A stretch of DNA of 64,000 bases, taken from positions 2,976,001 through 3,040,000 of the forward strand of contig NZ_CP080377.1 of the NCBI RefSeq assembly GCF_019443505.1. The letters run 5' to 3'. The DNA is from Janthinobacterium sp. PAMC25594. GTDB taxonomy: Bacteria; Pseudomonadota; Gammaproteobacteria; Burkholderiales; Burkholderiaceae_D. The translations under genes and the position numbers were made by a program. How positions within the stretch are numbered: position 1 is the first letter of the stretch; each line of letters opens with the position of its first letter. Below, piece by piece: positions 16,046 to 59,429 of this stretch. The notes under the pieces were generated by a model, which made no database searches, was not told the DNA's origin, and worked only from the letters and a program-made list of their open reading frames with translations.

Positions 16046-16049
16046 TCAA

Positions 16050-19121: not shown

Positions 19122-20038
19122 GAGGCTGGTTCCGTCAACACCGCTTCGCGCTGGGCTCGGCGCTGATTCATTTACGCAAGTCGCCGGGCGGCTTTTTACT
19201 GAACGTGCTCGTCGTCGCCATCGCCCTGTCGCTGCCGTTCGCCGGCTTGACCATGCTCGACAATGTGCGTCCCATGTCGGAACAGATGTCGGTCGACCCG
19301 GAAATCAGCGTTTTCCTGAAGATCGACACGCCGCGCGAGCAAGCCGTGGCCCTGGCGAGCGCCATGCGCAACATTGTCGGCGCGCAAAAGGCGAAGATCG
19401 TCTTCATCCCGCGCGAAGAGGCGCTCGATACCCTGAAGAACAAGAACGGCCTGGCCGACGTGCTCAGTACCCTGGGCGACAATCCCCTGCCCGACAGCTA
19501 TGTGCTGAAACTCGACGCCTTCAGCAGCGCCAGCGAAGCGCAGGATGTCGATGCGGTGGCGGAACAGTTGCGCCATCTGCCCGGCGTGGAATCGGCGCAA
19601 GTCGATTCGGCCTGGGTCAAGCGTCTGGCGGCCCTGCTGGGCGTGCTGCGCCTGGTGCTGCTGCTGCTGGCCATCACCCTGGGCGTGGCCGTCATCGCCG
19701 TGGTCTTCAATACCATCCGCCTGCAGGTGATGCAGCAGCGCGATGAAATCAGCATCTCGAAACTGATCGGCGCGACGGATACCTTCATCCACCGCCCCTT
19801 CTATTACACGGGCGCCCTGCTGGGCCTGTGCGCGGGCGCGCTGGCCCTGGGCGCCGTGGCGCTGGCCTTGCAGCCGCTCAATACCGCGATTGCCGAGTTT
19901 GCCCGCCTGTATGCGTCCGAATTCCAGCTGGTGCCGCTGGCGCCGCTGCCGATGGCCGGCTTGCTGGCCGTCAGCGCCGGCCTGGGCCTGATCGGCGCCT
20001 TCCTCTGCGTACAGCGCCACCTGGCGCGCCTGAACTGA
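19118..20038 (+). CDS. ftsX: Cell division protein FtsX
   Basis: Membrane partner of FtsE; its large periplasmic loop activates amidase regulators such as EnvC-type proteins. The 306-residue protein has a membrane segment near residues 22-45, a periplasmic domain of about 110 residues, and three more segments in the C-terminal half beginning at LLGVLRLVLLLLAITLGVAV. ATG overlaps the ftsE stop (ATGA). Ends 20 bases before a strong hairpin. Confidence 0.96.
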   Translation: MRGWFRQHRFALGSALIHLRKSPGGFLLNVLVVAIALSLPFAGLTMLDNVRPMSEQMSVDPEISVFLKIDTPREQAVALASAMRNIVGAQKAKIVFIPREEALDTLKNKNGLADVLSTLGDNPLPDSYVLKLDAFSSASEAQDVDAVAEQLRHLPGVESAQVDSAWVKRLAALLGVLRLVLLLLAITLGVAVIAVVFNTIRLQVMQQRDEISISKLIGATDTFIHRPFYYTGALLGLCAGALALGAVALALQPLNTAIAEFARLYASEFQLVPLAPLPMAGLLAVSAGLGLIGAFLCVQRHLARLN

Positions 20039-27340: not shown

Positions 27341-27838
27341 ATGTTTTGCACGGCATGCGGGACGCAGCAAGCGGAAGGCAAGACGCACTTTTGCGCCAAC
27401 TGTGGCGCGCGCAGTGACGCCGCCGAGGCACTGCCTGCCGGTGTGGCTGGCTGGAGTTGGGGCGCCTTCCTGCTGAACTGGATATGGGCGATCGGCAACC
27501 GCACGTGGATAGGCTTACTCGCACTGATCCCCTACGTTGGCATCGGGGTTGCCATCTGGCTGGGCATCAAAGGCCGTGAGATGGCCTGGAAAAATGGAAA
27601 ATGGCAAAGTGTTGAACACTTCAACCTGGTACAACGAAAGTGGTCGCAATGGGGCATCGGTCTTTCGCTTGTCATCGGCGTGATCAGCCTGTTGCTGTCT
27701 TTCGCCTTACTCGTATCGTGGTCGAAAGACATGAAGCGCGTTGACGCCAGCACCGTCGACACCCTCCTGGCGGCAGCGGAAACGTCCTCGCAAGAGGCCG
27801 CACAAGCGGCAATATGCCCCGCCGAAAGCGATGAGTAG
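27341..27838 (+). CDS. Zinc-ribbon membrane protein
   Basis: The 165-residue protein starts with a zinc ribbon: Cys3, Cys6 (FCTACG) and Cys18, Cys21 (FCANCG). It continues with hydrophobic segments around residues 45-75 and 105-128 and an acidic tail. A short WGAFLLNWIWAIGN stretch is typical of bacterial membrane proteins with an N-terminal zinc ribbon. ATG has AAGGA seven bases before it. The FNR box upstream predicts induction when oxygen is low. The function is unknown. Confidence 0.82.
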   Translation: MFCTACGTQQAEGKTHFCANCGARSDAAEALPAGVAGWSWGAFLLNWIWAIGNRTWIGLLALIPYVGIGVAIWLGIKGREMAWKNGKWQSVEHFNLVQRKWSQWGIGLSLVIGVISLLLSFALLVSWSKDMKRVDASTVDTLLAAAETSSQEAAQAAICPAESDE

Positions 27839-28228: not shown

Positions 28229-28810
28229 TTATAGATGCACGGCAATCTGCGGCATCAGGTCGTCAAACGTGCGACCGTTGCCGTTTTCTCCGATGGCGTG
28301 CATCTTCCATTCGCCGTTATGGCGGTACAGCCTGGCCATGATCTGTGCCGTGTGGGTACCTTGCACAGACAGGTTGAAACGCGCGACTTCCTGGTTATTG
28401 CTGGCATTCAAGATGCGGCAATAGGCGTTTTCCACCTGCGAGAAGTTCTGGCCTGTAAAGCTGTTGACGGTGAAGACCAGGCTTTTCACGTTCGCCGGCA
28501 CTTTCGACAGATCGACATTGATCTGTTCGTCGTCGCCATCGCCCGCGCCCGTACGGTTGTCGCCCGTGTGAACGATGCTGCCGTCCTTGCTTTTCAGCTG
28601 GCGGAACCAGACGATGTCGGACGTGCTCTTGTTTTCATCGAACATGACGCACGACGCGTCCAGGTCGACGGCTTCCGTCTTCGAACCGAAACCGAGGAAA
28701 CCCTTGGTCTTGGCCGCATCCCAGCCCAGGCCCATGGTGATACGGGTCAGGGTGGCACCAGCTTCTTTGTCCAGAGAAATCTTCTGGCCTTTGCTCAAAT
28801 TGACAGACAT
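28229..28810 (-). CDS. TerD family protein
   Basis: Calcium-binding stress protein of the tellurite-resistance family, 193 residues. It starts MSVNLSKGQKISLDKEAG and has the Ca-binding block HTGDNRTGAGDGDDEQI, as well as DLDASCVMFDE. The ATG at 28810 has AGGAG nine bases before it; another ATG two codons earlier is too close to that site. Cytoplasmic. It is one of two TerD paralogues in the cluster. The exact function of TerD proteins is not settled; they are tied to tellurite, phage and envelope stress. Confidence 0.93.
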   Translation of the reverse strand: MSVNLSKGQKISLDKEAGATLTRITMGLGWDAAKTKGFLGFGSKTEAVDLDASCVMFDENKSTSDIVWFRQLKSKDGSIVHTGDNRTGAGDGDDEQINVDLSKVPANVKSLVFTVNSFTGQNFSQVENAYCRILNASNNQEVARFNLSVQGTHTAQIMARLYRHNGEWKMHAIGENGNGRTFDDLMPQIAVHL

Positions 28811-28848
28811 ACGCATTGCTCCTGTTTGGTTGGTTGCATTAACTGCTC

Positions 28849-29556
28849 TTACGCCGGCTTGCTTTGCGTCCAGGCGAGGAAGGCCGCGCGGTTGCGCGAG
28901 CACACGAGGATTTTTCCCGTGCCTGAAAATTTCAGCACTACGCCCTCGCCGCTGGTCTGGCTATTGATCAAATTGCCCAGAAAGCCGCCGCTGCTGCCGG
29001 TCGTCATGGAAATTTCGTATTGCAGGCGGTTATCCCAGCACACGACGTGCGAGTTATCGATCACCACGTCCTTGCCAGGCGTCACTTCCAGTATCGACAT
29101 CGCGCCAAAACCGGAGACCGCCAACTGGCCGCTGCCTGCCGTCTCGGTGATGAAAAACCCACCGCTCTGGGCAAACAGCGCATTGCCAAGGCTTTGCGTG
29201 CGCACCTTCAATTCCACGCCAGCACTGGCCGCCACGAAGGCGCCGTCGCTGATCATGTATTGCTGGGCGCCAATCTCATTGCCCACATCCAGCACCCGCA
29301 TCGCGCCGGGCAAGGTGGGCGACAGCAGACAATCGCCGTCGCCCCGCATGGCCTCGATATGCTGCTGAAAGAACGATTCCCCGTTGGCAAAGGTGCGCAT
29401 CAACGCCGCACCTATGCCGCCAGTCATCTTGCCTTTCAGCTCAAGATTGGTTTCCATCATCACCATCGCGTTGGATTCGCAATAAATCTTCTCGCCCTTG
29501 GCCAGCGACACATGCAGGAACGGGTCGACATCCCCGGTAATAGTAAAAACTGGCAT
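28849..29556 (-). CDS. TIGR00266/AIM24-like protein
   Basis: The 235-residue product consists of beta-rich repeats with many Gly residues: MPVFTITGDVDPFLHVSLAKG, then GGIGAALMRTFANGESFF, and GAMSILEVTPGKDVVIDN. This matches the TIGR00266/AIM24 family, trimeric beta-prism-like proteins that often sit inside ter clusters. It lies between two terD genes on the same strand, with gaps of 38 and 73 bases. Confidence 0.88.
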   Translation of the reverse strand: MPVFTITGDVDPFLHVSLAKGEKIYCESNAMVMMETNLELKGKMTGGIGAALMRTFANGESFFQQHIEAMRGDGDCLLSPTLPGAMRVLDVGNEIGAQQYMISDGAFVAASAGVELKVRTQSLGNALFAQSGGFFITETAGSGQLAVSGFGAMSILEVTPGKDVVIDNSHVVCWDNRLQYEISMTTGSSGGFLGNLINSQTSGEGVVLKFSGTGKILVCSRNRAAFLAWTQSKPA

Positions 29557-29629: not shown

Positions 29630-30205
29630 TTAGACGCCGACGCCGAACGAGGCAGCCAAAGGGCCTAAACCGCCCTTGTAACCCTGGCCGATGGCCTTGA
29701 ATTTCCAATCGGCGCCATTGCGGTAGATTTCACCGAAGACCATCGCCGTTTCCGCCGAACCGTCTTCCGACAGGTCGAAGCGGGCGATTTCCGTGTTGCC
29801 GTTGGCGTTGACGCAACGCACGTAGGCCTTCGATACCATACCAAAGTTTTGCTTGCGCGCTTCGGCATCGTGAATCGTGACGCAGACGGCGATCTTGTCG
29901 ATCTCGGCTGGCACCGTGGCCAGGTCGACGATGACGGTTTCATCATCGCCATCACCGGCGCCGGTGGTGTTGTCGCCCGAGTGGGTGACGGAACCGTCGC
30001 TCGACTTCAGGTTGTTGTAAAAAATCATGTCGACGTCGGCGCGAACCTTGCCGTCGGCCTTCAGCAGGAAGATCGAACCGTCGATGTCGAATGCGGCGCC
30101 GTCGGTGGCGCGGGCATCCCAGCCCAGGCCGATGATCATCTTCGAAATGCCGGGGGCTTCCTTGCTCAGGTTGACGTTGCCGCCTTTTTGCAGACTGATT
30201 GCCAT
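29630..30205 (-). CDS. TerD family protein
   Basis: Second TerD paralogue, 191 residues, starting MAISLQKGGNVNLSKEAPG. It has the Ca-binding block HSGDNTTGAGDGDDETV and CVTIHDAEARKQNFG, which is closer to the TerD/TerE subgroup than the other copy. The ATG is preceded by AGGAGAAA. It lies between the DUF475 gene and the TIGR00266 gene. Confidence 0.93.
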   Translation of the reverse strand: MAISLQKGGNVNLSKEAPGISKMIIGLGWDARATDGAAFDIDGSIFLLKADGKVRADVDMIFYNNLKSSDGSVTHSGDNTTGAGDGDDETVIVDLATVPAEIDKIAVCVTIHDAEARKQNFGMVSKAYVRCVNANGNTEIARFDLSEDGSAETAMVFGEIYRNGADWKFKAIGQGYKGGLGPLAASFGVGV

Positions 30206-30336: not shown

Positions 30337-31410
30337 TTACACTGCCTTGACCGGCTCCAGCGCTTGCGTCTGGCCTTCTTCGAGGGCCATCCTGCGCTTG
30401 TGGCGGATCGACGACCACAGCGAGGCGAGAATGAAGGCCACCCCGATCAGACCCGTGAAGATCTCGGGAATGTGGAACTTCATGCTGACCAACATGATCA
30501 CGGCCAGGATACCGATCGCATAGTGCGCGCCGTGCTCCAGATAAACGAACTCGTCGAGCGTGCCCTTGCGCACCAGGAACACCGTCATCGAACGCACAAA
30601 CATCGCGCCGATTGCCAGGCCCAGCATGATGATCACGACATCCTTGGTGATGGCAAACGCGCCGATCACACCGTCAAAGCTGAACGAGGCGTCGAGCACT
30701 TCCAGGTACAGGAAGCCGCCGATACCGCCGCGCTTGATGATGTCGCCCATGTTGCCGTCGCCGTTATCGCCTTCCAGCAAGCCGCTGATCACATCGACGC
30801 CCACGTAGGTCAAAATACCCCACAGACCGGCCGTCAGGACCACCAGTTTCTGGCCTTCGTCGATCATCGACAGGCTGGCCATCAGGGTGCCCAGCGCGAT
30901 CATCACGGAAATCGACGAGATCTTGCCCAGCGCGCCCAGTTTTTCTTCAATACGGCCCAGCCAGTGCGTTTCTTTCTCCGAGTCCAGCAGGAAGTTCAGG
31001 AACACCAGCAGCAGGAAAATGCCGCCGAAAGCCGCCACTTCCGCGTGGTGATTCGTCAGGTGCATCGAATACTGTTCCGGATTGCTCAGGGCCAGATTCC
31101 ATACTTCCAGCAAGCCCAGGTCCGCCGCTTGCGCCACGATGACCAGCGGGAACAGCAGACGCATGCCGAAGACGGCGATGATGATGCCCACGCCCAGGAA
31201 CAGGTTCTGCCAGAACTTGTCCCAGTTCTTCAACACCGAGGCATTGACCACCGCGTTATCAAACGACAGCGAGACTTCCATCACGCTCAGGATCACCGCT
31301 ATGCCCAATGCCGACAGCATGGTCGACACGCCACCGTGCGTGTAACCCCACCAGGCGGAAATACCCAGGCAGATAAATGTCACTAGAAATGACACTCTGA
31401 AATGTTTCAT
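30337..31410 (-). CDS. DUF475/TerC-like integral membrane protein
   Basis: The 357-residue membrane protein has about nine hydrophobic segments. Acidic motifs in membrane segments, SVMEVSLSFDNAVVNA and EVLDASFSFDGVIGAF, mark it as a TerC-superfamily member of the DUF475 type. TerC proteins are implicated in metal (manganese, calcium) export or membrane insertion. Start is the ATG at 31410, preceded by AAGGGGA; the open frame continues upstream without a ribosome site. It is the first gene of the ter cluster and divergent from a NhaR-like regulator 115 bases away. Confidence 0.9.
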   Translation of the reverse strand: MKHFRVSFLVTFICLGISAWWGYTHGGVSTMLSALGIAVILSVMEVSLSFDNAVVNASVLKNWDKFWQNLFLGVGIIIAVFGMRLLFPLVIVAQAADLGLLEVWNLALSNPEQYSMHLTNHHAEVAAFGGIFLLLVFLNFLLDSEKETHWLGRIEEKLGALGKISSISVMIALGTLMASLSMIDEGQKLVVLTAGLWGILTYVGVDVISGLLEGDNGDGNMGDIIKRGGIGGFLYLEVLDASFSFDGVIGAFAITKDVVIIMLGLAIGAMFVRSMTVFLVRKGTLDEFVYLEHGAHYAIGILAVIMLVSMKFHIPEIFTGLIGVAFILASLWSSIRHKRRMALEEGQTQALEPVKAV

Positions 31411-31525
31411 CGATAGTTCCCCTTTATCCAAATTCAATGGAACGTAGTATAAGGACATGTGACACATTTAAAAATAGAAGATAATGGAAGCATTACTTCG
31501 TAAAAACAGAAGATAGGACCATGCG

Positions 31526-47913: not shown

Positions 47914-48384
47914 TTGTTTCACGTTGTTTTGGTAGAACCTGAAATCCCGCCCAACACGGGCAACGTCATCCGCCTGTGCGCGAACACGGGCGCGCAGCTG
48001 CACCTGGTCGAACCGCTGGGCTTTCCGCTCGACGATGCCAAGATGAAGCGCGCCGGCCTCGATTACCACGATTACGCCAAGATGAAGGTGCACAAGAATT
48101 GGGCAGCGTTCCTGGCCGACACCCAGCCGGACCCATCCCGCATGTTCGCCATGACCACGCGCGGCTCGCGCCCGTTTGGCGACGTGGTCTTCCTGCCAGG
48201 CGACGTGTTCGTGTTCGGCTCGGAGACAAAAGGCCTGGATCCCGCCCTGCGCGACGGCTTTCCGGCAGAGCAACGCATCCGCCTGCCCATGCGCCCGGAC
48301 AACCGCAGTTTGAATTTATCGAACACGGTGGCCGTCGTCGTGTATGAAGCGTGGCGCCAGCACGGGTACCAGGGCGGCGCGTAG
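47914..48384 (+). CDS. trmL: tRNA (cytidine(34)-2'-O)-methyltransferase
   Basis: SPOUT methyltransferase acting on the wobble base of leucine tRNAs. The 156-residue protein has [13 protein letters not shown] near the start and the knot motif [18 protein letters not shown] at the end. Translation starts with TTG at 47914, six bases after AAGGAG; no ATG fits the family start. The stop codon lies at the edge of a REP-like repeat. Confidence 0.93.
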
Positions 48385-48484
48385 GTCGGATTAGGCCCAA
48401 GGGGCCATAATCCGACAACATTGTTGGCGTTAGTGGTGTTGTCGGACTACGCGGGGCTTTACCCCCGTTAATCCGACCCACGCG
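48381..48484. repeat. REP-like compound inverted repeat
   Basis: GTCGGATTA (48385-48393) and its inverse TAATCCGAC flank a GGCCC/GGGCC stem, followed by a second unit with GTCGGACTA and TTAATCCGACCCACG to 48484. The outer ends are also inverted copies. It begins at the trmL stop and ends just before the lipoprotein gene, so it may end both transcripts. It shares the GTCGGA core with the repeat at 35382-35441. Confidence 0.65.
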
Positions 48485-48498
48485 TTTGCATACGGCAA

Positions 48499-49248
48499 TC
48501 AGCGCAGCGCCAGCTGCGCGTCAACGCCCGTATCCACATCCAGCATCACCAGCTGCGTGTGCAGGTCGCGCGTGGCGGCCAGCTTGCCGTTGACATATAA
48601 ATTCGTCTTGACGCCATACACGCCCTGCGACACGCCGGCCGGCAAGGTCAGCTCGAACGAGTTCTCGAAGCGCCCGCCCGATTTATTGCTGCTGGCCAGG
48701 GCCTTCGAGCCGGACTTGAATGGCTGGCCTTGCGGATCGAGCACCACCAGTTCTTCGCGCACGTCGTTGACGCTTTGCGCGCTGCCATTGACCAGCTCCA
48801 CCACCGAATGCACCTTGAACGGCTGACCGCGCTTGACGGTCGACGCGCTCAGCTGCGGCGTGTACGACACCACTTGCGGTTCGCGCGGCAGCGCGCCGCG
48901 TGCGCGGATGTAGTCGCGGTCCGCCTGCGCCGCCGTCTTGGTCTGGCGCGAATTGACATTGATCGCCAGGCAACCGGCCGCCGCCAGGCCGCCGCCGATG
49001 GCCGCGCCCTTCAGCGCGCCATTCTTGCCGCCCGCCAGCGCGCCCAGCAGCGCCCCCACGGCCGCGCCGGCCGCCGCCGACGTGCCCACGCTGCACGGAT
49101 CTTCATCCGTGGCCGCCTGGGTGGCGCCTTGCGGATAGGAATTGTCCTGGCGCACGCCGTTCGGATTCATCGGCGCCGTGGCGCAGCCGGCCAGCATGGC
49201 GGCGATGGTCAGTGCGGCGGTGGCGCGCGAGGTGGCGTGATACAGCAT
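48499..49248 (-). CDS. Glycine-zipper lipoprotein of the tubulin-like operon
   Basis: The 249-residue protein has a lipoprotein signal (MLAGC, Cys22). Residues about 55-95 form a glycine zipper (GAAVGALLGALAGG, AAIGGGLAAAG) of the kind that packs into membranes. The C-terminal half is a beta-rich domain with VLDPQGQPFKSG and GVYGVKTNLYVNGK, similar in style to envelope accessory proteins. It is the last gene of the six-gene operon, 14 bases after the adaptor gene. I know no named family for the whole protein. Confidence 0.75.
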   Translation of the reverse strand: MLYHATSRATAALTIAAMLAGCATAPMNPNGVRQDNSYPQGATQAATDEDPCSVGTSAAAGAAVGALLGALAGGKNGALKGAAIGGGLAAAGCLAINVNSRQTKTAAQADRDYIRARGALPREPQVVSYTPQLSASTVKRGQPFKVHSVVELVNGSAQSVNDVREELVVLDPQGQPFKSGSKALASSNKSGGRFENSFELTLPAGVSQGVYGVKTNLYVNGKLAATRDLHTQLVMLDVDTGVDAQLALR

Positions 49249-49262
49249 GGTGCTCCCGATGA

Positions 49263-50474
49263 CTAATTGATCGTTGTTTCCGTCTGCAGCACTTGCCGCT
49301 CGCGTTCGCGGATGCGGCGCGACAGATTGTCGATGCGCGCATTGCCGGGATCGACGCGGCGTGCGCTTTCCAGATACGTCTTGGCCGCATCGAACTTGCC
49401 TTCCAACAAAGAACGCTCGGCGTCGCGCAGGAACGATTGCGCCATCTCGCTGCGCATGGCCGCGCCGCTATCGACGGGCGACGTTTCCAGCGGACGGCGT
49501 TCCGTCACCGCTGGACGTTCGACCGCGCGCACGGGCGCCGGTTCCGTCGACACGCTGCGGGCCGGTGCCGTTTCCAGCGATCCCGGTGCTGAAACGGGCG
49601 CAGGCGCCGACAACGCTTGCACATCGACCTGCAACTGCGGCAATTCCACCGCTTCGCGGTCGATCGCTTCCAGCCGGGCGATGCCATTGCGTGCCGCCGC
49701 CGCATCCTTGCCATCGAGCGCCTGGCGTACCCCCACCAGCACGGACGCGGCTGCCGCCTGTTGGCGCGCCAGCTGCTTGCGCAAGGAATCCACGCTGGAT
49801 GCGCCCGCGCAATCGGCGTCGAGCGCGGCGATGCCGCTGGCCGCGCTTTGCAATTGATGGCCGTCAATGTTGCGCTCGATGGCGCGCACGCCGCGCTGGC
49901 AACTGCCCGATGCGGCGCCCGCCTTGCCGATCGCCGCCTGCAAATCGTCGGCCTTGGCGCTGGACTTGCCCGTGCACACATTTTTCGCCGTTGCCAGCTT
50001 CTGGCGGGCGCCGTCCAGGCTGCCATTCGCCACCAGTTTCAAGCCGCTGTCGATGGCGTCGTTGCAGGCCGATTCACTCTTGCCGCCAGGCTTGCCGTTC
50101 ATGTAGACGATGACCGCCGCCAGCACGACGGCGCCGCCCAGCCAGCGCAGCCACTTGCGCGGCGGTGACGGCGGCAGCGGTGCGGCCGGGGCTGGCGCCG
50201 GTGCCGGTACAGGCTTCGGCGCGGCTTGCGGCTGCGGCTGGGCCGGTTTCGGCGGTGGTTTCGGCGGTGGTTTCGGCGCAGGCGCCGGAGCTACCGGCTG
50301 GGGCTGCGGCTTGGGCGCCACGGGCGGCGCTACTGGCATAGGCGCGGGCATGGGCGGCAGCGGTGGCGGCACGGCCGCAGCTGGCCGGGCAGCACCCGCC
50401 ACGGCGTGACCGCAGTACGGACAATGGCTGACAGCACTGAACAAGCCGCCCTTGCATTTGATGCAGATATCCAA
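49263..50474 (-). CDS. Zinc-ribbon, proline-rich membrane adaptor with Cys-paired helical repeats
   Basis: The 403-residue protein has four parts. Residues 1-22 are a zinc ribbon (Cys4, Cys7, Cys18, Cys21). Residues 30-105 are a Pro/Ala/Lys linker. Residues 108-126 are a membrane segment (WLRWLGGAVVLAAVIVYM). Residues 130-403 are periplasmic helical repeats: Cys137-Cys167 and Cys192-Cys222 are each 30 residues apart, and the two units repeat at exactly 55 residues, suggesting disulfide-locked helical hairpins; a TPR-like end follows (EGKFDAAKTYLESARRVDPG). It starts with TTG at 50474 with AAGGA six bases before. It may connect the cytoplasmic tubulin-like protein to the envelope. Confidence 0.78.
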   Translation of the reverse strand: MDICIKCKGGLFSAVSHCPYCGHAVAGAARPAAAVPPPLPPMPAPMPVAPPVAPKPQPQPVAPAPAPKPPPKPPPKPAQPQPQAAPKPVPAPAPAPAAPLPPSPPRKWLRWLGGAVVLAAVIVYMNGKPGGKSESACNDAIDSGLKLVANGSLDGARQKLATAKNVCTGKSSAKADDLQAAIGKAGAASGSCQRGVRAIERNIDGHQLQSAASGIAALDADCAGASSVDSLRKQLARQQAAAASVLVGVRQALDGKDAAAARNGIARLEAIDREAVELPQLQVDVQALSAPAPVSAPGSLETAPARSVSTEPAPVRAVERPAVTERRPLETSPVDSGAAMRSEMAQSFLRDAERSLLEGKFDAAKTYLESARRVDPGNARIDNLSRRIRERERQVLQTETTIN

Positions 50475-50507
50475 AACTAATCCTTCATTCCAACGTCATT
50501 CCAGCGT

Positions 50508-53500
50508 TCACAGGGGCGGCGGCATCAACGGTGGCGGCGCGCTGAGGAACAAGGGGGCCAACTCGGGGAACTGGGCCAGCTCGGCCCAGGCCGGCATGCC
50601 GGCGCGCCACACCTTGGTGGTGCCAGGTGCGACTTGCCCCGCCTGCACGTACTGCACGATCTGCTGGGCCGTGAACGGTCCCTGCTGCTGGCCGTTTATG
50701 CCCAGGAAATACTGGTATTCCACCAAAGGCGGCGGCATGCCGCCCAGCGGTGGCGGCGCCATGCCAAAGGCGGGGGCCGCAGCGGCCGCCATTCCGGCCG
50801 GGCGCAGCAATTGCTCCAGGCGCCCCGCTTCCAGCATTTCCCCCTTGATCGCGTATTTCAACCGGGGCTGGCCATCCGCTTCCGGCTCGCGCACTTCCCA
50901 GTCGTAGGCATCGCTGTCGGAGTCGCCGATGACGTTCGCCCATTCCTTCAGGCGGCCCAGCAGGGCTTGCACCGTACGGTCGAGCTCATCGCTGGCCATG
51001 CCCTTGCGGCGCGCCGACTCGCGCAGGCGCGCACCCACCTCGGCGGAAATGGCGCTGCCAAAGCCGATATACGGCAGCTGCGAGCCATCGGCCTGCGCCA
51101 CCAGCTTGGGCGCATACACGCCCCGTTCATAGTATTTTGCCAGCGCCGCCAGGGCCGCCGTCTGCACGGCGTCAAGCGCCGCCAATTTTTCCTCGATGCG
51201 CAGGGCGATATTTTTCTCGTACGAAGCGGGCATGCCGTTCTGGCGGATGGCCCGTTCGTTGCCGATGCGGCGCAGGTCGCCCGGCTCGACGGCAAACTGG
51301 TACTGGCCCGGCGGCACGACGCGACCCGTGTGGCGCGTCAGTATGCCCAGCATGATGGCTTGCAGGAATTCGCCGAAGTCTTCCGCCAGGCGCTTCATCT
51401 CGTCCGTGTTCGGCGCGATCGGGTGCGTGAATTGCGTCGGATCGATGTGCGTATGGGTCGGCGCCTTGTCGTTGTCGCCTTCCTTGCGGTAACTGGTGCG
51501 CCAGCCTTCCAGGCCGCGCAGCACCGTCATCGGCACGCCGGCCAGCTCGCAATAGCAGACGGCGCGCCCGCGAATGCCCGTCTCGACGATTTCCAGCTGG
51601 CTCACCGTGATGCCCACCTGGGTCGGCACGCACGATTCGAGCTCGGCGCCGAACTTCGCATTGAAGGCGGCCGCGTTGGCCACGCCGATCACGCACTTGA
51701 ACTGGTCCGACACGACCGTGAAGTCGCCCGCCATGTTGGCGTCGATCCACGGCATGGAGCAGGCCAGAAGCTTGCGGAAGCGGTCCAGACGTTCGGACAC
51801 GTCCATCTGTTCCAGCGCCTCGAACAGGGGGTCGGACGTGCTCGTCGCCCCTTCCACCAGGCCCGCCGTGGCGATCATATTCTCGGCCATACGCGTGACC
51901 TTGGCCAGGATCAAGCCCCGTTGCGCCGGTTCGGCCAGCATGGGGAACAGCGCTTTCGAGCCGCCCATGTCCTTGAACGCTTCATCGGCCCACTGGCGCA
52001 AGGTGGCCGCCGATGGCAGCGCAATGTCTTTTTCCGTGACGGGAATGACGATCAGGGTCGCGTGTTCCTTGTCCAGGTCTTTTTGCAGGATGGTATTGGC
52101 CGTTTTGAGTTCCGCCAGCATGGCCAGCACGCCTTCGCGGCCCGTTTGCAGCTCGCCCACCAGACCATTCCACTGGGCGCGGCCTTGCGCATCGACGCCA
52201 ACCCGGTTGCCCAGCCAGCGCGACAGCTCGCCCAGCAGGATGACGGACTCGTCCGCCGCCTTGGCGCGCAGGTGAAATTTCAGCGCATTCGCCATTTCCG
52301 TGCGCAAATGATCCATCACCACGCCGGCCTGCTTTTCGCCATTGCTGAGGAAACCGAAGGTGCTGCGCGTCTGTTCCAGGTTGTTCAGCAGACGCTCGTA
52401 TTCGCGCGAACGCACGGCTTCCTTGATCTCGCGGTAGCGCTCGGCATTGTTGCCAATCTGCGCCGTCAAGCCGCTGCCCGGCGCCTCGATGCGGTCCTTG
52501 ATCTGTTCCACCAGCGACAGCACGTATTCCAGGCCGCCGAACTCTTTATTATCCAGATAGCCATACAGCTGGTCGCGCACGACTTTCTTGACGTCGTCGA
52601 GCACTTCGCGGCGGCGCTTGCTGATGCGGTCTTCCGTCGTGTCGGCCGTGGAGTCCTGGTCGCGCACGGCGTCGCGTTCCAGGTGTTTCATGGCGTCGCG
52701 CACCTGCGCCGGCCATTCGCTGCGGTCAAAGCCCGTGCGGATATCGTTGATGCGCGTGTTGACCCGGTTTTCCACGCCGGCCAGCAAGTGGCCGTGGCGG
52801 TCTTCCAGCAATTCGTCGACGATGCGGAAATCGATGAAGTCGCCGCTGGAGCGCTTCAGTTCGATGCTCTTGTCGGAAAACTCGGGGAAATCGCTGAACG
52901 GCGCGCCCTTCAGGAACATATTGGCGGCGAGGAAATTATCGCGCTGCGTATCGGTGGCGCGGTTGGCGCCCGCATCCGTGCCGCCCACGCCGAAGAACGC
53001 TTGCAGCATGGCGCCGGCCCAGCGGTGAGCCCGCTCGTCGCGCGCCGCTTCCTGGCGCGTATCGAGCACGGCCATGCCGAACGAGGAAAAGCGCTTCGAG
53101 AAATACAGGCGCATGTCGCCGAAACGGTCTTGCGGCACGGGTGCGTTGTACAGCGAGTTCTTGTGCTGCGCCTGGTTGACGGCGATCGAACGCTTGGCGC
53201 GCGCGAAGTCGGCCGAAGCGAAATCCTCGAACAGCGAGTCGGCCACCATGTGGTAGACGTCGCTGACATCCTTGGTGTGCTGCTGGGCAAGGTTGCCCGA
53301 ATCGATCAGGTACACCTCGCTGTACGGTTCGCGCGTCAGTTCCGGGCGGTCGTAGGCATCCCAGCGGCCCACATAGCCCTTGTTGCCCATCATCGCCGAT
53401 TCCAGCTCCATCAGCGCCGCATAACCGTTGGCCTCGACCCGGTCCTTGTTGGCCTTGGTGTAGCCGGTCGGCAAGAACAGCATCAGCTCGACGTCGGCCG

Positions 53501-54203
53501 CGCCCACTTCGCTGCGCGCCAGCCAGCGCGCCAGCAAACCCATGTCGAGGAAGGAACCGGACCCCGTGCCGCCGGCCACGGAGCCGACGATGACGATGCG
53601 GAAACGGTTCGTTTCCATGCGTAAACCCAGTTCGGCCAGCTGGCGCTCGTGCGACAGGCCCGCCTTCAAGGCTTTCAGTTTCAAGCGGATCTTGTCGCGG
53701 ATCTTCGCGTATTTGTCGAAGAAATACAGGCGCGAGACGGCGCGGATCTGCCCGGCGCCGCTGCTCATGTCGAAACGCAGCTCGCGGATGCGCTGCGGCG
53801 TCAGCGGCAGCCATTCCTTGATGTGCGGATATTTCTCCAGAGAATCTTCATCGCGGCTGTACTTGTCCATGTCGAACGATTCGACCACCTTGTCGTCATC
53901 CGTGAACTTCACCTGGTCGAACTGCAAGTCCTTCGCCTGCGACTCGCCGCTTTCGATCACGGCGCCATTGTCGAGGTCGAAATGGATGAATTGCGCGATG
54001 GGAAAGTCGGCCAGGCCCTCGATGCGCGTGCGGTGGCCCGCGCCGCCCCACAGGGTGTTGAGGATGCGCCGGCGCACGCGCATCAGCACCTGCATGCCCG
54101 TGCCGCCGATGCCGATGAACAGGGTCGGGCGCAGTTCGATGATCTTGTCCTGCTTGCGCTCGCTGGCGCCGCCGGTGATGGTTTGGTTCAGGTTCTCTGC
54201 CAT
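50508..54203 (-). CDS. Tubulin/FtsZ-superfamily protein (Tubulin_2 type) with C-terminal GYF-like domain
   Basis: A 1231-residue cytoplasmic protein. The N-terminal 350 residues carry tubulin-superfamily GTP-binding features: FIGIGGTGMQVL (residues 29-40), QFIHFDLDN (71-79), GAGQIRAVSRLYFF (149-162) and the tubulin signature GGTGSGS (211-217) within GSVAGGTGSGSFLD. An Asn/Arg-rich contact, KANKDRVEANGYAALMELE, follows. The middle 700 residues are mostly helical with charged coiled-coil-like stretches and no domain I know. Residues about 1163-1215 look like a GYF_2 domain (GPFTAQQIVQYVQAG, TKVWRAGMPAWAEL), followed by a Pro tail. It has AAGGA before its ATG. This resembles the FtsZ-like families proposed to act in membrane remodelling; no function is established. 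Confidence 0.85.
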   Translation of the reverse strand: MAENLNQTITGGASERKQDKIIELRPTLFIGIGGTGMQVLMRVRRRILNTLWGGAGHRTRIEGLADFPIAQFIHFDLDNGAVIESGESQAKDLQFDQVKFTDDDKVVESFDMDKYSRDEDSLEKYPHIKEWLPLTPQRIRELRFDMSSGAGQIRAVSRLYFFDKYAKIRDKIRLKLKALKAGLSHERQLAELGLRMETNRFRIVIVGSVAGGTGSGSFLDMGLLARWLARSEVGAADVELMLFLPTGYTKANKDRVEANGYAALMELESAMMGNKGYVGRWDAYDRPELTREPYSEVYLIDSGNLAQQHTKDVSDVYHMVADSLFEDFASADFARAKRSIAVNQAQHKNSLYNAPVPQDRFGDMRLYFSKRFSSFGMAVLDTRQEAARDERAHRWAGAMLQAFFGVGGTDAGANRATDTQRDNFLAANMFLKGAPFSDFPEFSDKSIELKRSSGDFIDFRIVDELLEDRHGHLLAGVENRVNTRINDIRTGFDRSEWPAQVRDAMKHLERDAVRDQDSTADTTEDRISKRRREVLDDVKKVVRDQLYGYLDNKEFGGLEYVLSLVEQIKDRIEAPGSGLTAQIGNNAERYREIKEAVRSREYERLLNNLEQTRSTFGFLSNGEKQAGVVMDHLRTEMANALKFHLRAKAADESVILLGELSRWLGNRVGVDAQGRAQWNGLVGELQTGREGVLAMLAELKTANTILQKDLDKEHATLIVIPVTEKDIALPSAATLRQWADEAFKDMGGSKALFPMLAEPAQRGLILAKVTRMAENMIATAGLVEGATSTSDPLFEALEQMDVSERLDRFRKLLACSMPWIDANMAGDFTVVSDQFKCVIGVANAAAFNAKFGAELESCVPTQVGITVSQLEIVETGIRGRAVCYCELAGVPMTVLRGLEGWRTSYRKEGDNDKAPTHTHIDPTQFTHPIAPNTDEMKRLAEDFGEFLQAIMLGILTRHTGRVVPPGQYQFAVEPGDLRRIGNERAIRQNGMPASYEKNIALRIEEKLAALDAVQTAALAALAKYYERGVYAPKLVAQADGSQLPYIGFGSAISAEVGARLRESARRKGMASDELDRTVQALLGRLKEWANVIGDSDSDAYDWEVREPEADGQPRLKYAIKGEMLEAGRLEQLLRPAGMAAAAAPAFGMAPPPLGGMPPPLVEYQYFLGINGQQQGPFTAQQIVQYVQAGQVAPGTTKVWRAGMPAWAELAQFPELAPLFLSAPPPLMPPPL

Positions 54204-54240
54204 GGTGATTCCTTCGATGATGCGTACGACGGCGTGCGGC

Positions 54241-54678
54241 TTAGCGGCGGCTCGATGTAAAGGTCAACAGTAACGCGACCAGGCCCACCAGCACCAGCGG
54301 TCCCATGAACAGTGGCGCGAGGAATTTATGCGCGTTCACGGCGGCCAGCACGACACCGGTGGCCAGGCTGGCCAGGAAGATGAACAACCACCAGCCCGAG
54401 GCATTGGCCTTGTTCGGGGGCACGCGCTTGGCCACCAGGCCATTCGCATAGGCATTCTTGGCAAAGAAAAAGGCGATGAACAGCAGCAATAGCACCACGC
54501 CGCCGACCAGGGTGTCGCGCGACGAGGTGTCGGTCGTGCTGGCAGGGTCGAGCGCGGGCGCCGGCTCGGTGGTCGCCGTGGTGGTGCTGGCCGCAGTGGA
54601 TGCATCGGCTGCCGGCGGCGCGGATGCGGGGGCCGGCAGGGTAAAACCGCTGTTGTCTTTTGGAGTCTCTTGCGCCAT
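54241..54678 (-). CDS. Small membrane protein of the tubulin-like operon
   Basis: The 145-residue product has a low-complexity Ala/Thr/Pro N-terminus (about 50 residues) and then three hydrophobic segments at about residues 55-72, 96-114 and 119-140, ending in SSRR. No conserved motif is recognisable. The gene lies between the vWA-like gene and the tubulin-like gene, with 44 and 37 bases on either side, so it is part of the operon. Confidence 0.72.
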   Translation of the reverse strand: MAQETPKDNSGFTLPAPASAPPAADASTAASTTTATTEPAPALDPASTTDTSSRDTLVGGVVLLLLFIAFFFAKNAYANGLVAKRVPPNKANASGWWLFIFLASLATGVVLAAVNAHKFLAPLFMGPLVLVGLVALLLTFTSSRR

Positions 54679-54722
54679 GGTATGCCTCAGTTGAATAGAA
54701 GGTTTTTTTAAAGAATGGTTGC

Positions 54723-56192
54723 TCAGGCCAGGCTCAGGGTATGCCCTTCGGCCACGCGCGCGATGGCAGGCTTGCCCAGTCCACGCTTGAGTTCGCCGAT
54801 ATCGCGGCCGTCATCATCGCGGATCTGCACGCTCTTGAACGGTTTGAGCAGTACTTGCCGCTGCACGCCGTCAGCCATCACCTTGTAGCGCGTGGCGCGC
54901 GTGCCAAGCAAACCCAGCGCCAGCAAGCCCAGCACGAGCGCCAGCACGCCGCCGAGGATCACCAGCACGGGCAAGAGCGGATACTGGATGCGCACCAGCA
55001 GCGGGATCGTCGCCTGCGACGCGCGCACGCTGTCGGGCGGCGTGAACATGCCCGAGATCGGGTCGCCGGGGAACAGTTCCTGCAAATCCTTGCCGAAGCT
55101 GGACGCCAGCGCCAGCCGCTGTTCCCACAGGCCCACCTGCGCCTGCATGGGCAGCATCACCTGCTTGCCCATGGCGGCGATCGCCTGCGCCGACCACGGC
55201 GAGGGAATCTGCGCCATCGGCAACGCGAACTGTACCTGCACGGCCTGGCTGGCGCCCGGCTGCAGCTGGCGGATTTGATCCGGCGCAACGTGCAGCGGCG
55301 CGTTCTGGCCCGCCAGGCTGGCGTGCACTTTGGCGCTATCGATCACGTACGGGAAAAACATGTTTTGCAGCGACGCCTGCAGCACCACTTGCGGCACCAG
55401 GTTCGCCGCATCGACGTCGAGCACGATGGTGCGCCCGTCGCGGCCCAGGCTGGCGTGCACGTTGGCACTGTTCTTGACGGACTGGGGCACGATGCGCACG
55501 GCATCCTGGTCCACCGGTTTCAAGCGCGCGGGCGGGCGCGTCAGCACTTGCGACAGCCGCCCTTCGGCCAGGATGCGGGTCAACGCCTCGGACGCGGGCT
55601 GGCCATACGCGAGCGCATACACCATCAAGCCTTTGGCGCTGTACAGCTTGCCCTGTACAGGCATGCGCAGCGGAAACACCAAGGTCTTGGTGATCGACGG
55701 TTCCAGATGCAGCAGGCGATAAAAGTCGCGGTTGCGTTCGGCCGTCTGGCTGTCGTTGTTCGGGCTGTTCTTGTTATTCGTAAAGATCCACACGATGCCG
55801 GAAGCGGACTGGAACGGCCCCGTGATGGTCTTGGTCACGGCTTCCTGGAAATCCGTGTCGGCCAGCGCGCCGCCGGCGCTCTTGCGCGCCAGGCCCAGGC
55901 TGGCCAGCTGGCCCGCCACGCCGGCGCCACCCTGCCCTTGCCCGATCAGTGCGGGCGACACATTGCTGCCGCTGCTCTGGCTGAAGGCCAGCGTGTAGAC
56001 TTTGTCGGACGGGCTCGTGGCGGCCTGCGCCACGGCGCCCACCAGGGCTTTCAGTTGCGAATGTTCATCCGTATAAAACGGCTCCATCCAGCCCGAATTT
56101 TGCACCAGAAACGCTTGCTGGATGCCGGCCGCGTGCGCGGCGGCAGCGCTGAACAACGCGGCGCAGGCCACCGTCAGTAAGCGCGCCTTCAT
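54723..56192 (-). CDS. Exported, membrane-anchored protein with a degenerate vWA-like start
   Basis: The 489-residue protein has a signal peptide (residues 1-21). It then reads AFLVQNSGWMEPFYTDE, which has the place and shape of a von Willebrand A domain DxSxS start but with Gln31-Asn-Ser-Gly-Trp, so the metal site is probably lost. GIVWIFTNNKNSP later fits a vWA central strand. Near residues 415-440 a membrane segment (LLPVLVILGGVLALVLGLLAL) leads to a cytoplasmic tail of about 60 residues. It overlaps the preceding gene by four bases. The vWA reading is my inference. Confidence 0.72.
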   Translation of the reverse strand: MKARLLTVACAALFSAAAAHAAGIQQAFLVQNSGWMEPFYTDEHSQLKALVGAVAQAATSPSDKVYTLAFSQSSGSNVSPALIGQGQGGAGVAGQLASLGLARKSAGGALADTDFQEAVTKTITGPFQSASGIVWIFTNNKNSPNNDSQTAERNRDFYRLLHLEPSITKTLVFPLRMPVQGKLYSAKGLMVYALAYGQPASEALTRILAEGRLSQVLTRPPARLKPVDQDAVRIVPQSVKNSANVHASLGRDGRTIVLDVDAANLVPQVVLQASLQNMFFPYVIDSAKVHASLAGQNAPLHVAPDQIRQLQPGASQAVQVQFALPMAQIPSPWSAQAIAAMGKQVMLPMQAQVGLWEQRLALASSFGKDLQELFPGDPISGMFTPPDSVRASQATIPLLVRIQYPLLPVLVILGGVLALVLGLLALGLLGTRATRYKVMADGVQRQVLLKPFKSVQIRDDDGRDIGELKRGLGKPAIARVAEGHTLSLA

Positions 56193-57673
56193 GCCTGCAA
56201 GGCCCAGCCATCGATGCGCGACAGCAGCGGGTGGTAGGCCCACAGCGTGCCTTCATGGACAAACAGGCGCACGCGCCACGGCTCGCTGACGGCAAAGGTA
56301 TGAAACACGGTTTCGCGCAATTCATCGTCCTGCACCAGCTGGGCCGCCAGGCGCTCGTTCGAGCGCAGCACGCTGGACAGGCCGGCGCTGGTGGCAAACT
56401 TCACGCCAAAGACGCTGTTGCCCCCGCCCGATTCCAGCAGCGGCATGACGGCCTGGTTCTTGCCGCCATCGTCGCCGTGTTCCGGCTCTTCCCACGGCGC
56501 CGTTTTCAGCTTGGTGGCGAAGCGGTAATTGAAGCTGCCCGAACACAGGCGCGGCGCCAGCGCGTCGGCCTTCTCGACCTGGGCGCCCAGTTTCACATAG
56601 ACATACGTGCCGCGCCGGCTTTCAAAGCACAGTTGCCACAGGCCGCCGTCGCGCGACAGGTAGGGGCTGCCGAATTCGAAGTGCGGCACCAGCCCTTCGG
56701 GCCAGGGCGTGAACGAGGCGGCCACATTGCCATCCGGCTGCAGCTGCAAGCGCAGCTGGCCGTTGGCGCAAGGCCACACGGCCATGCGGTTGTAGGCCAC
56801 GGGCGCGCCGACGGCACCCAGATCCATCATGCCGTCGAGCAGCACATCGCTGCCCGACTTTTCTTGCGCGTCAAGGTTGACGAAGCGGATGCGGCCATCG
56901 TCGTCGCGCAAGGGCGCCCACAGGCGATTCTGGAACCAGACGGGGCCCGCCACGCACGGCGCGCCGCCCACATGCTCGACCACGTAAGTGAGCGAAGGCA
57001 CGTCGGGACGGATGCAGGCGAGGCCATGGCTGGTCGGCAAGACCAGCACGCTGTTGAACTCCGGCACCAGCTCGGCGCGCCAGGCGCCGTGGGCCAGGTC
57101 CGATTCGGCCAGCAAGCCGCCATGGTCGGGGTCCAGCGCCAGCCAGCGTTTCGAGGCGGGCAGCCAGGCGTGCAAGACGGCCTTGCGCGGATCGAGCGCC
57201 AGCAGCGCGGGCGCGCTGGTGCCGAACTGGGCGGAAAAGAATTCGTATTCGCCCGGTGGCGGCATGGGCAGCGAGGCGTCGGCCTGCGCATGCTCTTCGC
57301 GCACGCGCTGGTCCGCCAGCTTCAAGGGCACGCTGGCCTGGCGCAAGGCGGCCGCGCCAGCCGGTGGCACGTCGCTGACGGGCTGCGCGCCGAAAGGCGG
57401 AACCCAGGGCAGGGTAAGCGCCGTGCCAGGCGGCACCTGCAAGGCCGCGCCCGAGGCGGGGTCGAACGAGAATTCGGGCGGAAACAGCCGCACGGGCGCG
57501 TCGGCGGCAGCCGGCAGGCGCCGCGCGTGCATCAGCTTGCCGATATCGGCCTGGCTCAGCAGGGGCGAGACGTTCTGGCCATCCGCGCTGCGCTGCATGC
57601 TCCACGCGCCATCGTCGTCGACGTACCAGACGCCGGAGGGCACGGCCCAATCCCCAGAAGTTTTAAGATCCAT
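56189..57673 (-). CDS. Large protein of unknown function, first gene of the tubulin-like operon
   Basis: The 494-residue protein has no signal peptide or membrane segment, so it is predicted cytoplasmic. It is rich in Trp, Gly and Pro and has many short beta-like stretches (RLWAPLRDDDGRIRFVNLD, LRLQLQPDGNVAASF), which could form a beta-propeller; I cannot assign a family. I use the ATG at 57673 (MDLKTSGDWAVPSGVWYVDD); an ATG at 57760 would add an Arg-rich segment. It overlaps the vWA-like gene by four bases. It lies 129 bases downstream of the hldE-type gene, with no clear promoter visible. Confidence 0.68.
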   Translation of the reverse strand: MDLKTSGDWAVPSGVWYVDDDGAWSMQRSADGQNVSPLLSQADIGKLMHARRLPAAADAPVRLFPPEFSFDPASGAALQVPPGTALTLPWVPPFGAQPVSDVPPAGAAALRQASVPLKLADQRVREEHAQADASLPMPPPGEYEFFSAQFGTSAPALLALDPRKAVLHAWLPASKRWLALDPDHGGLLAESDLAHGAWRAELVPEFNSVLVLPTSHGLACIRPDVPSLTYVVEHVGGAPCVAGPVWFQNRLWAPLRDDDGRIRFVNLDAQEKSGSDVLLDGMMDLGAVGAPVAYNRMAVWPCANGQLRLQLQPDGNVAASFTPWPEGLVPHFEFGSPYLSRDGGLWQLCFESRRGTYVYVKLGAQVEKADALAPRLCSGSFNYRFATKLKTAPWEEPEHGDDGGKNQAVMPLLESGGGNSVFGVKFATSAGLSSVLRSNERLAAQLVQDDELRETVFHTFAVSEPWRVRLFVHEGTLWAYHPLLSRIDGWALQA

Positions 57674-57802
57674 GTATTTTCTATGACTAGCAATGCATAT
57701 CAGGCGGTGTAACGGGTGCTGGGGCTGACGCAACGAGGTCGCAACCCTGGCAGTTCTCATAGTAACGTCTTTTTATCTGTATGAAAACATTGACGGCGTT
57801 CC

Positions 57803-58285
57803 TCAGCCCTGCTGCGTCCGCACTTTCGTCAGCAGCTTGGTGGTCGAGCGGTCGTGCGCGAAATCGATGGCCACGGCCTGGCCGCCATACGCCAGCACGG
57901 CCTTGCCTTCAGGGATGGCCGCCATGTCGTAGTCGCCGCCCTTGGCATAGATTTCCGGTTCGATTTCCTGCACCACTTCCAGGGCGCTGTCTTCCGAGAA
58001 CGGCACCACCAGGCTCACCGCTTCCAGCGCGGCCAGCACGGCCATGCGGTCTTCGCAACTGTTCAGGGGACGGTCGTCGCCCTTGCCCAGGCGTTTCACC
58101 GATGCATCGGTATTCACGGCCACCACCAGCGAGGCGCCCAGCGCGCGCGCCTGCGCCAGGTACGTCACGTGGCCGCGGTGCAGAATGTCGAACACGCCGT
58201 TCGTCACCACCACCGGTTTCGGCAGGGCCGCGGCGCGGGCGCGCAGTTCGTCACGGTCGCACAGTTTGTTTTCAAAATCAGGCAT
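57803..58285 (-). CDS. D-glycero-beta-D-manno-heptose-1-phosphate adenylyltransferase
   Basis: Nucleotidyltransferase domain corresponding to the C-terminal half of HldE (RfaE), making ADP-heptose for lipopolysaccharide core. The 160-residue protein has the HxGH motif in VTNGVFDILHRGHVTYL and a C-terminal STTKLLTKV. In this group of bacteria the kinase and adenylyltransferase are separate genes; the kinase is not in the window. ATG at 58285 has AAGAGA before it. Confidence 0.92.
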   Translation of the reverse strand: MPDFENKLCDRDELRARAAALPKPVVVTNGVFDILHRGHVTYLAQARALGASLVVAVNTDASVKRLGKGDDRPLNSCEDRMAVLAALEAVSLVVPFSEDSALEVVQEIEPEIYAKGGDYDMAAIPEGKAVLAYGGQAVAIDFAHDRSTTKLLTKVRTQQG

Positions 58286-58496
58286 GGATATCTCTTGTTG
58301 GGTTAAATAGGGGCACGCTATGGTCAAGCTCAGGCGTGGCTATCGCCTTGCATGCCGCCTGCAGCCCTCTCCCTTCGCTGCCCGCTCCCGCATTATAGGG
58401 GGCGATCCGCTACAATACGCCACCGGTGCCACAGTTTCACGTGCGCGCCACCTTTCATTCATTGCAAGTGAGCACTTCCTGTGTTTCAATCAAACT

Positions 58497-59429
58497 ATGA
58501 CACTGACTGAACTGAAATATATCGTTGCAGTCGCGCGAGCGAAGCACTTCGGCCATGCCGCCGAAGCCTGTTTCGTTGCGCAGCCCACCCTGTCAGTGGC
58601 CATCAAGAAACTCGAAGACGAATTGGGCGTGGTCCTGTTCGAACGGGGCGGCGCGGAAATCTCCGTCACGCCCCTGGGCGCGCAGATCATCGCGCAAGCC
58701 GAACGCGTGCTGGAACAGACGGCCGCCATCAAGGAACTCGCCAAGCAGAACAAGGACCCGCTGGCCGGCCCCCTGCGCCTGGGCGTGATCTACACGATCG
58801 GCCCCTACCTGCTGCCGCCCCTGGTCAAGGCCATGATAGACCAGGTGCCGCAGATGCCTTTGATTTTGCAGGAAAACTTCACGGTTCGCCTGCTCGAATT
58901 GCTGCGCCAGGGCGAACTGGACGTGGCCATCATGGCCCTGCCCCTGCCCGACCACGGCATGGCCATGCAAGAACTGTATGACGAACCGTTCGTCGTGGCC
59001 ATGCCGCGCCAGCATCCGTGGACAGCGCGTGAACAAATTGCCGCGCAAGACTTGAAATCGGAAACCATGCTGCTGCTGGGCAATGGCCACTGCTTCCGCG
59101 ACCAGGTGCTGGAAGTGTGCCCCGAAATGGCGCGTTTTTCCTCGCCCGGCAACGGCATGCAGCGCACGTTCGAAGGTTCCTCGCTGGAAACCATCCGCCA
59201 CATGGTGGCCAGCGGCATCGGCCTGACGGTCTTGCCGCGTGCCTCTGTGTCGAATATGCACGCCACCGAGGGCATGCTCGAATACCGGCCCTTCGCCGCA
59301 CCCGTGCCATCGCGCAGGGTGGTGATGCTGTGGCGCAAGAGTTTTACGCGCAAGGCCGCCATCGATGCCCTGTGCGCGGCCATCGCCAGCTGCGACTTGC
59401 CCGGCATTACACCACTCTGCGAGGAGTAG
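58497..59429 (+). CDS. oxyR: Hydrogen-peroxide sensor regulator OxyR
   Basis: LysR-type regulator of 310 residues. The helix-turn-helix is AAEACFVAQPTLSVAIKKLE near residues 21-40. The redox cysteines are Cys199 and Cys208 (GNGHCFRDQVLEVCPE), the same numbers as in E. coli, which form a disulfide on peroxide exposure. I use the ATG at 58497, which gives the family start MTLTELKYIVAVARAKHFG; the frame is open further upstream. Divergent from the hldE-type gene. Confidence 0.96.
   Translation: MTLTELKYIVAVARAKHFGHAAEACFVAQPTLSVAIKKLEDELGVVLFERGGAEISVTPLGAQIIAQAERVLEQTAAIKELAKQNKDPLAGPLRLGVIYTIGPYLLPPLVKAMIDQVPQMPLILQENFTVRLLELLRQGELDVAIMALPLPDHGMAMQELYDEPFVVAMPRQHPWTAREQIAAQDLKSETMLLLGNGHCFRDQVLEVCPEMARFSSPGNGMQRTFEGSSLETIRHMVASGIGLTVLPRASVSNMHATEGMLEYRPFAAPVPSRRVVMLWRKSFTRKAAIDALCAAIASCDLPGITPLCEE

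Follow-up and report, generated by a model that had tools for sequence, protein, structure and literature searches.

The closest described relatives of the genes considered here are the operons of FtsZl1, an FtsZ-like protein for which Makarova and Koonin described vWA-linked operons in 2010 and proposed a role in membrane remodelling (PMC2875224). In that paper, most of these operons, not all, include a vWA partner, and the metal-ion-dependent adhesion site (MIDAS) motif is intact in the majority of the vWA neighbours; T6-H7 could not be identified in FtsZl1, the authors allowed that it may not form filaments, all characterised members of the superfamily are said to form them, and a reviewer proposed transport or signalling (PMC2875224). 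Kaur et al. 2020 describe tubulin-containing GAP1-N2 conflict systems with extracellular vWA proteins, zinc ribbons and GYF, FGS and PEGA modules (PMC7159879). Here we analyse a group of six genes, A to F, in a 64,000-nucleotide stretch of the genome of a soil bacterium, Janthinobacterium sp. PAMC25594 (contig NZ_CP080377.1, positions 2,976,001 to 3,040,000; hereafter the window, whose own numbering is used throughout). An initial annotation of this DNA had assigned the largest product to a Tubulin_2-type, FtsZ-like branch with proposed membrane remodelling and vWA partners, and had stated that no member is known to be functionally characterised. Among the matches listed in the open-licence literature, judged by their titles and the openings of their abstracts, there was no functional study of a Tubulin_2/FtsZl1 member, nor a study of a GYF-tubulin or Ter-tubulin pairing.

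The locus resembles the FtsZl1 operons in protein family, GTP loops, vWA neighbour and predicted membrane role, and the 2010 set includes a betaproteobacterium, Polaromonas (PMC2875224). It differs from them, as they are described there, in that the six proteins contain no kinase, P-loop GTPase or OmpA family by Pfam, in that the vWA metal motif of B is degenerate where theirs is mostly intact, and in that the unit adds a GYF domain on D, the propeller A, the three-segment protein C with its fixed peptide and the zinc-ribbon protein E. With the GAP1-N2 systems it shares a tubulin-domain protein with a C-terminal extension, an extracellular vWA protein with membrane helices (the topology being predicted in the window), zinc ribbons and modules of the GYF, FGS and PEGA kind (PMC7159879), whereas Pfam shows none of the GAP1, zinc-ribbon P-loop GTPase and FNIII families among the six. 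For GAP1 and the zinc-ribbon P-loop GTPase this negative holds at E 0.1, it was not confirmed that a Pfam GAP1 model exists, and the fold predictions did not cover D's central part or the greater part of E. By the published descriptions, this GYF/zinc-ribbon branch is distinct both from the FtsZl1-vWA operons of 2010 and from the tubulin-vWA conflict systems of 2020; the A-E unit is a well-bounded variant of the known Tubulin_2/FtsZl1 loci.

The tubulin-like protein D and its gene unit

The six open reading frames (ORFs) lie on the minus strand and run from 57673 to 48499 (ORF calling and sequence), separated in A to F order by -4, 44, 37, 33 and 14 bases, which bears out the initial description of overlaps or gaps of at most 44 bases. 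D (50508..54203, 1231 residues) was to be compared with Tubulin_2, a check set beforehand, and it matches this family (PF13809) at 207 bits against a cut-off of 27 (E 5.2e-61, residues 28-399). Its C-terminus matches GYF_2 (PF14237; 51 bits, E 1.3e-13, residues 1165-1215), a domain absent from the initial description. Tubulin_2 (E 0.001) and GYF_2 both occur in 27 of 27 chosen relatives of D, which makes the GYF domain constant in this branch as far as sampled; the Tubulin_2 proteins of two other loci, L058 and L147, show no GYF match. Two GTP loops can be read in D, GxGGTG at 31-36 and AGGTGSG at 210-216, the latter containing the GGTGSG that had been placed at 211-216. In the alignment of 27 D proteins, the first loop has G33, G34 and G36 without exception, G31 in 24 sequences and T35 in 26, while in the second, AGGTG[SA]G, residues A210, G211, G212, T213, G214 and G216 are all invariant and only the serine/alanine position varies. 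Judged from these motifs and the family match, D is a Tubulin_2/FtsZ-like protein with putative GTP loops.

D is not the FtsZ of this organism. The genome holds a single Tubulin_2 gene and, elsewhere, one ordinary FtsZ gene adjoining an ORF that reads as FtsA; this separate ftsZ is the only match in the genome to the canonical FtsZ/tubulin family PF00091, which does not match D (Pfam, E 0.1). A direct profile comparison of D with the genome's own FtsZ was not significant, the sole aligned stretch being the GGTGSG loop; the case for kinship between D and tubulin is thus made by Tubulin_2, the GTP-loop motifs and published HHpred work on the family (PMC2875224). A tubulin superfamily fold is expected for D as for the FtsZ of the division ring, where recruitment by membrane partners through the tail offers a possible parallel; unlike it, D is three times longer and exists beside a separate canonical FtsZ. 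Searched by sequence against the Protein Data Bank, D gave the GYF domain of AglX and two chance-level rows, nothing else. D is 98% identical to proteins labelled Janthinobacterium.

Relatives of D were collected by scanning genome contigs with a 20-sequence alignment, and the best 80 of 153 were used for gene-order counts and gaps; the trees comprise such loci and the window. The loci were thus chosen by similarity to D and, since many come from near-identical Janthinobacterium or Massilia genomes, the counts are of loci, not of independent events. In every one of the 71 loci whose sequence extends 4 kb or more beyond D on the upstream side, A, B and C stand beside D, and A-B-C-D keep one order and strand in all 73 loci that hold them. 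With 2.5 kb available downstream, E follows in 62 of 63 loci (in L075, the exception, an ORF matches but no start was assigned to it) and F in 35 of 63. Median gaps across loci are -4, 42, 30 and 17 bases (73, 73, 73 and 69 pairs). That gene set and order agree in 73 of 73 loci shows that the unit is not a product of chance. The neighbours do not vary freely among genomes; free variation is what the initial annotation had named as speaking against a cluster.

Rough gene clusters in the 81 loci of at least 18 kb give the same picture, with D in 79, B in 76, A in 71, C in 67, E in 66 and F in 37, followed by an ABC-transporter-like cluster (our label) at scattered positions in 40 and by flanking clusters in 33, 32 and 24 loci, whose members all belong to the Massilia-like clade. 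In this set, and in those used below for the motifs of B and C, at least seven contigs, judged by equal lengths, are counted twice (L033/L088, L034/L077, L040/L112, L042/L121, L044/L115, L045/L128 and L060/L122). The family alignments were built from 17 to 27 selected sequences out of 95 to 104, except for F, with 17 out of 43. Trees of D, B and A (46 rows) are congruent: all 21 well-supported splits of the D tree recur in those of B and A, the D tree contains 19 of 22 well-supported B splits and 22 of 25 A splits, and supported conflicts number zero; when every one of the 43 splits is counted, the trees compared have 27 to 33 in common. Altogether, A-B-C-D-E is an inherited unit with a constant core, while F is clade-limited.

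The unit is seen in Burkholderiales, Rhodocyclales, Lysobacterales, Moraxellales, Oceanospirillales, Chromatiales and Methylococcales, in one long-branched metagenome bin of the Desulfovibrionales, and in a genome from a different class within the phylum (L152). Near the L152 unit, an ORF at 18664-20000 reads by eye like the start of Cas9 and is noted as a candidate. Counting the own genome, Tubulin_2 is patchily distributed: at family level it occurs in 46 of 195 genomes, 45 of them above the cut-off, and the figures are 7 of 300 for the order and 5 of 369 for the class, where 4 exceed it. Within the genus, 13 genomes carry Tubulin_2. B was found in 1 of 369 genomes in the class scan, the own genome only, and in 3 of 398 in the phylum scan. 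Two separate clades exist within Oxalobacteraceae, and one genome has both (L082, L119). The distant Tubulin_2 loci L058, L059, L146, L147 and L148 show no match to A, B, C, E or F, and L050, with a Tubulin_2 fragment below the cut-off, no match to any protein of the unit.

The partner proteins

A (56189..57673, 494 residues), of the length first reported and then called an unknown, has a predicted beta-propeller fold over residues of about 114-494. This assignment comes from the predicted fold; a search for repeats inside A was not significant. A has no signal or membrane segment and is hence probably cytoplasmic. In other clades its N-terminal part carries a cysteine ribbon motif that is absent from the A of the window. 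We considered the zinc ribbons of A and E as one family and rejected this, the match being weak (23 columns, hhalign probability 17).

B (54723..56192) overlaps A by 4 bases and has 489 residues from its ATG, or 506 if an upstream GTG is used. Hydropathy gives it an N-terminal signal-like segment and one further segment near 406-424, where the predicted fold has a single membrane helix (407-431), in keeping with the exported, membrane-anchored protein of the initial annotation. Its vWA character, also claimed there, is supported by the predicted fold and not by Pfam: the model shows a vWA domain at 22-221, an Ig-like sandwich at 226-405 and a small C-terminal beta domain, which we infer to be cytoplasmic. 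Pfam lists no vWA family for the B of the window; at E up to 10, VWA families appear in 2 of 26 B proteins (best E 0.068), and in that of L099 the match is colinear over residues 26-217 (E 0.093). Against three vWA proteins from L097, hhalign gave no significant match to B, a search of A and B by sequence against the Protein Data Bank gave nothing credible, and a protein search for a deep vWA set yielded, among the matches listed, near copies of at least 74% identity save one at 59%. In the first Foldseek list for B, mostly beta-sandwich and other folds, integrin ectodomains are the sole vWA entries among the 50 listed. Sequence searches having been weak or null, the vWA identity of B is thus owed to its predicted fold. 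The metal-site motif QNSGWM is present in 97 of 99 B proteins, the other two ending at a contig edge before it, and an alignment read with the predicted fold puts N139-N140 at the expected position of the second MIDAS aspartate. B lacks the standard MIDAS arrangement (DxSxS plus a second conserved aspartate); as read from its residues, the vWA metal site is degenerate but fixed.

C (54241..54678, 145 residues) was described as a three-segment membrane protein, and hydropathy finds three hydrophobic segments in 101 of 101 C proteins. Its variable N-terminal tail contains GFx[LIV]P in 99 of 101, and the charge pattern suggests that this tail is periplasmic. Start codons were assigned by script, and the two C and two E proteins that lack their motif have doubtful starts.

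E (49263..50474, 403 residues from a TTG start) begins with a Cys4 zinc ribbon followed by a proline-rich linker. The ribbon half of its earlier description as a zinc-ribbon/membrane adaptor stands, while the membrane segment, at 109-127, is borderline (hydropathy peak 1.5 over 19 residues, 1.9 over 17). The rest of the window's E gives only a weak TPR match (Pfam). Between lineages the output part differs (TPR, PEGA or TerD) and the ribbon is kept; from these domain assignments, E is a modular adaptor with a fixed ribbon and a variable output. In L107, a second zinc-ribbon protein with twelve Sel1 repeats (14923-16842) directly follows E and suggests duplicated adaptors. Upstream of the L099 unit, a zinc-ribbon protein is fused to a formylglycine-generating-enzyme-like domain (93-1172).

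F (48499..49248, 249 residues) had been called a glycine-zipper lipoprotein. Its lipobox-like cysteine, C22, is invariant in 17 of 17 aligned proteins, whereas the glycine-zipper stretch, which a C-terminal domain follows, reaches Pfam matches below the cut-off only. In 24 of 81 loci (e.g. L123, 18077-18436), all in the Massilia-like clade, which mostly lacks F, E is followed on its own strand by a small lipoprotein-like protein of about 119 residues, a possible stand-in for F.

Proposed mechanism and competing explanations

B and C are predicted to reside in the inner membrane, E less clearly so, and F is predicted to be a lipoprotein, so that a complex associated with the envelope is the most natural interpretation. 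We propose, with a probability of roughly 0.45, that the products of the six genes form a single complex centred on the inner membrane, linking the periplasm to a cytoplasmic tubulin-like putative GTPase and serving stress-responsive envelope change or repair. The envelope-spanning machine of six proteins first suggested is supported in part by the predicted membrane proteins B and C and the predicted lipoprotein F, but F occurs in 35 of 63 loci only and the core is A-E. In the mechanism that we envisage, the vWA domain of B, outside the membrane, would sense or grip a periplasmic ligand, the conserved GFx[LIV]P tail of C being a candidate ligand or latch for it. The state of B and C would be passed through the membrane, and GTP-loaded D would assemble beneath, on the propeller A. 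GYF domains bind proline-rich peptides, and that of D may hold proline-rich segments, namely the linker of E and D's own PPPL tail, which is found in the window's clade, and may recruit the ribbon adaptor E. The swapped output of E would then decide what gets delivered, and in some lineages F could anchor the complex to the outer membrane. Acting alongside the TerD system, the complex would most likely serve to change or repair the envelope under stress. Speaking against the linker of E as a GYF ligand, the E protein of L103 has no proline-rich linker.

Among the alternatives, a biological-conflict system of the tubulin-vWA type, immune or self-sacrificing, fares best, and we consider it unlikely. 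Here the tubulin-like protein, the vWA protein and the adaptor would act together as a threshold switch, with the exchangeable portion of E as effector, as the output swapping in E would allow. The same combination of tubulin-domain proteins with extracellular vWA, zinc ribbons, GYF, FGS and PEGA occurs in the published GAP1-N2 neighbourhoods (PMC7159879). Other Tubulin_2 genes do keep such company: that of L058 (2856-12090) lies next to zinc-ribbon-like membrane proteins (by eye), a caspase-like peptidase and a CHAT protein, and that of L147 (6388-14851) is fused to a STAND-type NTPase, with an AAA and TIR gene after it and a TPR-S protein before it; both contexts agree with the published conflict picture. 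The patchy distribution in order (7/300) and class (5/369) points the same way. On the other hand, Pfam assigns none of the six proteins to a nuclease, protease, TIR or pore-effector family, the PADLOC anti-phage models give 0 matches to them at E 0.1, Tubulin_2 is present in 13 genomes of the own genus, and A-D are constant with agreeing trees, which is not expected of a fast-diversifying system.

D could also be a non-polymerising, GTP-switched scaffold, the G-protein-like hub of a trans-envelope signalling complex of receptor or transporter type. The missing T6-H7 of FtsZl1, the doubt about its filaments and the reviewer's proposal of transport or signalling (PMC2875224) would fit such a role, and each of the modules concerned (vWA, propeller, zinc ribbon and GYF) mediates interactions. 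We nevertheless regard it as rather improbable, given that every characterised member of the superfamily forms filaments according to the same authors (PMC2875224) and that no transporter domain occurs among the six proteins by Pfam.

A machine for surface motility or secretion resembling the focal-adhesion gliding apparatus of Myxococcus has very little in its favour. In that apparatus an inner-membrane protein with GYF and zinc-ribbon domains connects a GTPase in the cytoplasm with components in the periplasm and outer membrane, and the D profile does match the solved GYF domain of the gliding protein AglX (7z3c, E 2.3e-8) and, far below its cut-off, the NCBIfam GltJ model. Yet the match is restricted to the GYF domain, a common module, and the other five proteins reach no cut-off of a gliding or secretion family. 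Finally, that the six genes are merely adjacent, united by a shared chromosomal position, can be dismissed: some flanking genes also recur within Janthinobacterium and within the Massilia-like clade, but flanks differ across genera while A-E stay in order, up to another class (L152) and another phylum (L106, a metagenome bin), and cross-genus gene order has already refuted it for A-E.

The Ter connection, genomic surroundings and significance

An E-type ribbon is fused to TerD in L097, L099 and L102. In L097 the unit is followed by genes for TerD, vWA, TerD, vWA, a TerY_C-type vWA protein and PP2C and, further on, by a kinase-like ORF (a candidate, by eye) and two more TerD-like ORFs. No TerD homologue was found in the other loci fetched, and Pfam finds no TerD domain in the six proteins of the window, which in this respect differ from Ter systems; 3 of 27 scanned E proteins contain the domain, the L099 and L102 fusions having been put into the set on purpose. 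At the genome level, TerD occurs in 40 of 46 Oxalobacteraceae genomes with Tubulin_2 and in 14 of 149 without (odds ratio 64), an association confounded by kinship; it reads 27 of 33 versus 14 of 149 without the own genus and 5 of 7 versus 4 of 37 at genus level (p 0.002), again confounded by kinship and with no control family compared. The window itself has two TerD genes (Pfam; 28229-28903 and 29630-30205), about 18 kb from F, with a further protein between them (28849-29556). Beside these lie a putative TerC-like membrane protein (30337-31467) and a putative zinc-ribbon membrane protein (27341-27838), both labelled by eye. TerD and the tubulin-like gene share a contig in 9 of 13 genomes of the genus, about 23-25 kb apart. 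A bolder version of the proposed complex, which we hold to be improbable, would make a metal-independent periplasmic vWA receptor, a C-peptide latch, a GYF-reading tubulin-like GTPase and swappable ribbon effectors (TPR, PEGA, TerD) into a trans-envelope signalling cytoskeleton, the structural arm of the proteobacterial Ter stress response.

The ORF 5' of A, which ends 129 bases before it, matches the heptose-1-phosphate adenylyltransferase model. A cluster at this position, probably that gene, occurs in 14 of 81 loci, all of the genus Janthinobacterium; it is hence not part of the unit elsewhere. A scan of 48200-58500 found 0 sigma-70-like promoters against 1.5 expected, a difference that carries no information. 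Elsewhere in the window, a bacterial class A RNase P RNA lies at 3992-4353 on the minus strand, and a tRNA scan of the 64 kb found none.

In summary, our analysis confirms the gene group as first observed and partly supports its earlier interpretation, which was right in outline and is sharpened here by the degenerate but fixed motif of B, the GFx[LIV]P tail of C, the GYF domain of D and the ribbon of E with its swapped output. The parts list of this branch is short and fixed, Janthinobacterium is culturable in the laboratory, and particular contacts are predicted, namely of the vWA domain with the GFx[LIV]P tail, of the GYF domain with proline-rich tails and of the zinc ribbon with its output. 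It also gives a lead to the equally ill-understood TerD proteins. Thus, the role of an FtsZ-like protein outside cell division becomes directly testable, for example by gene deletion.

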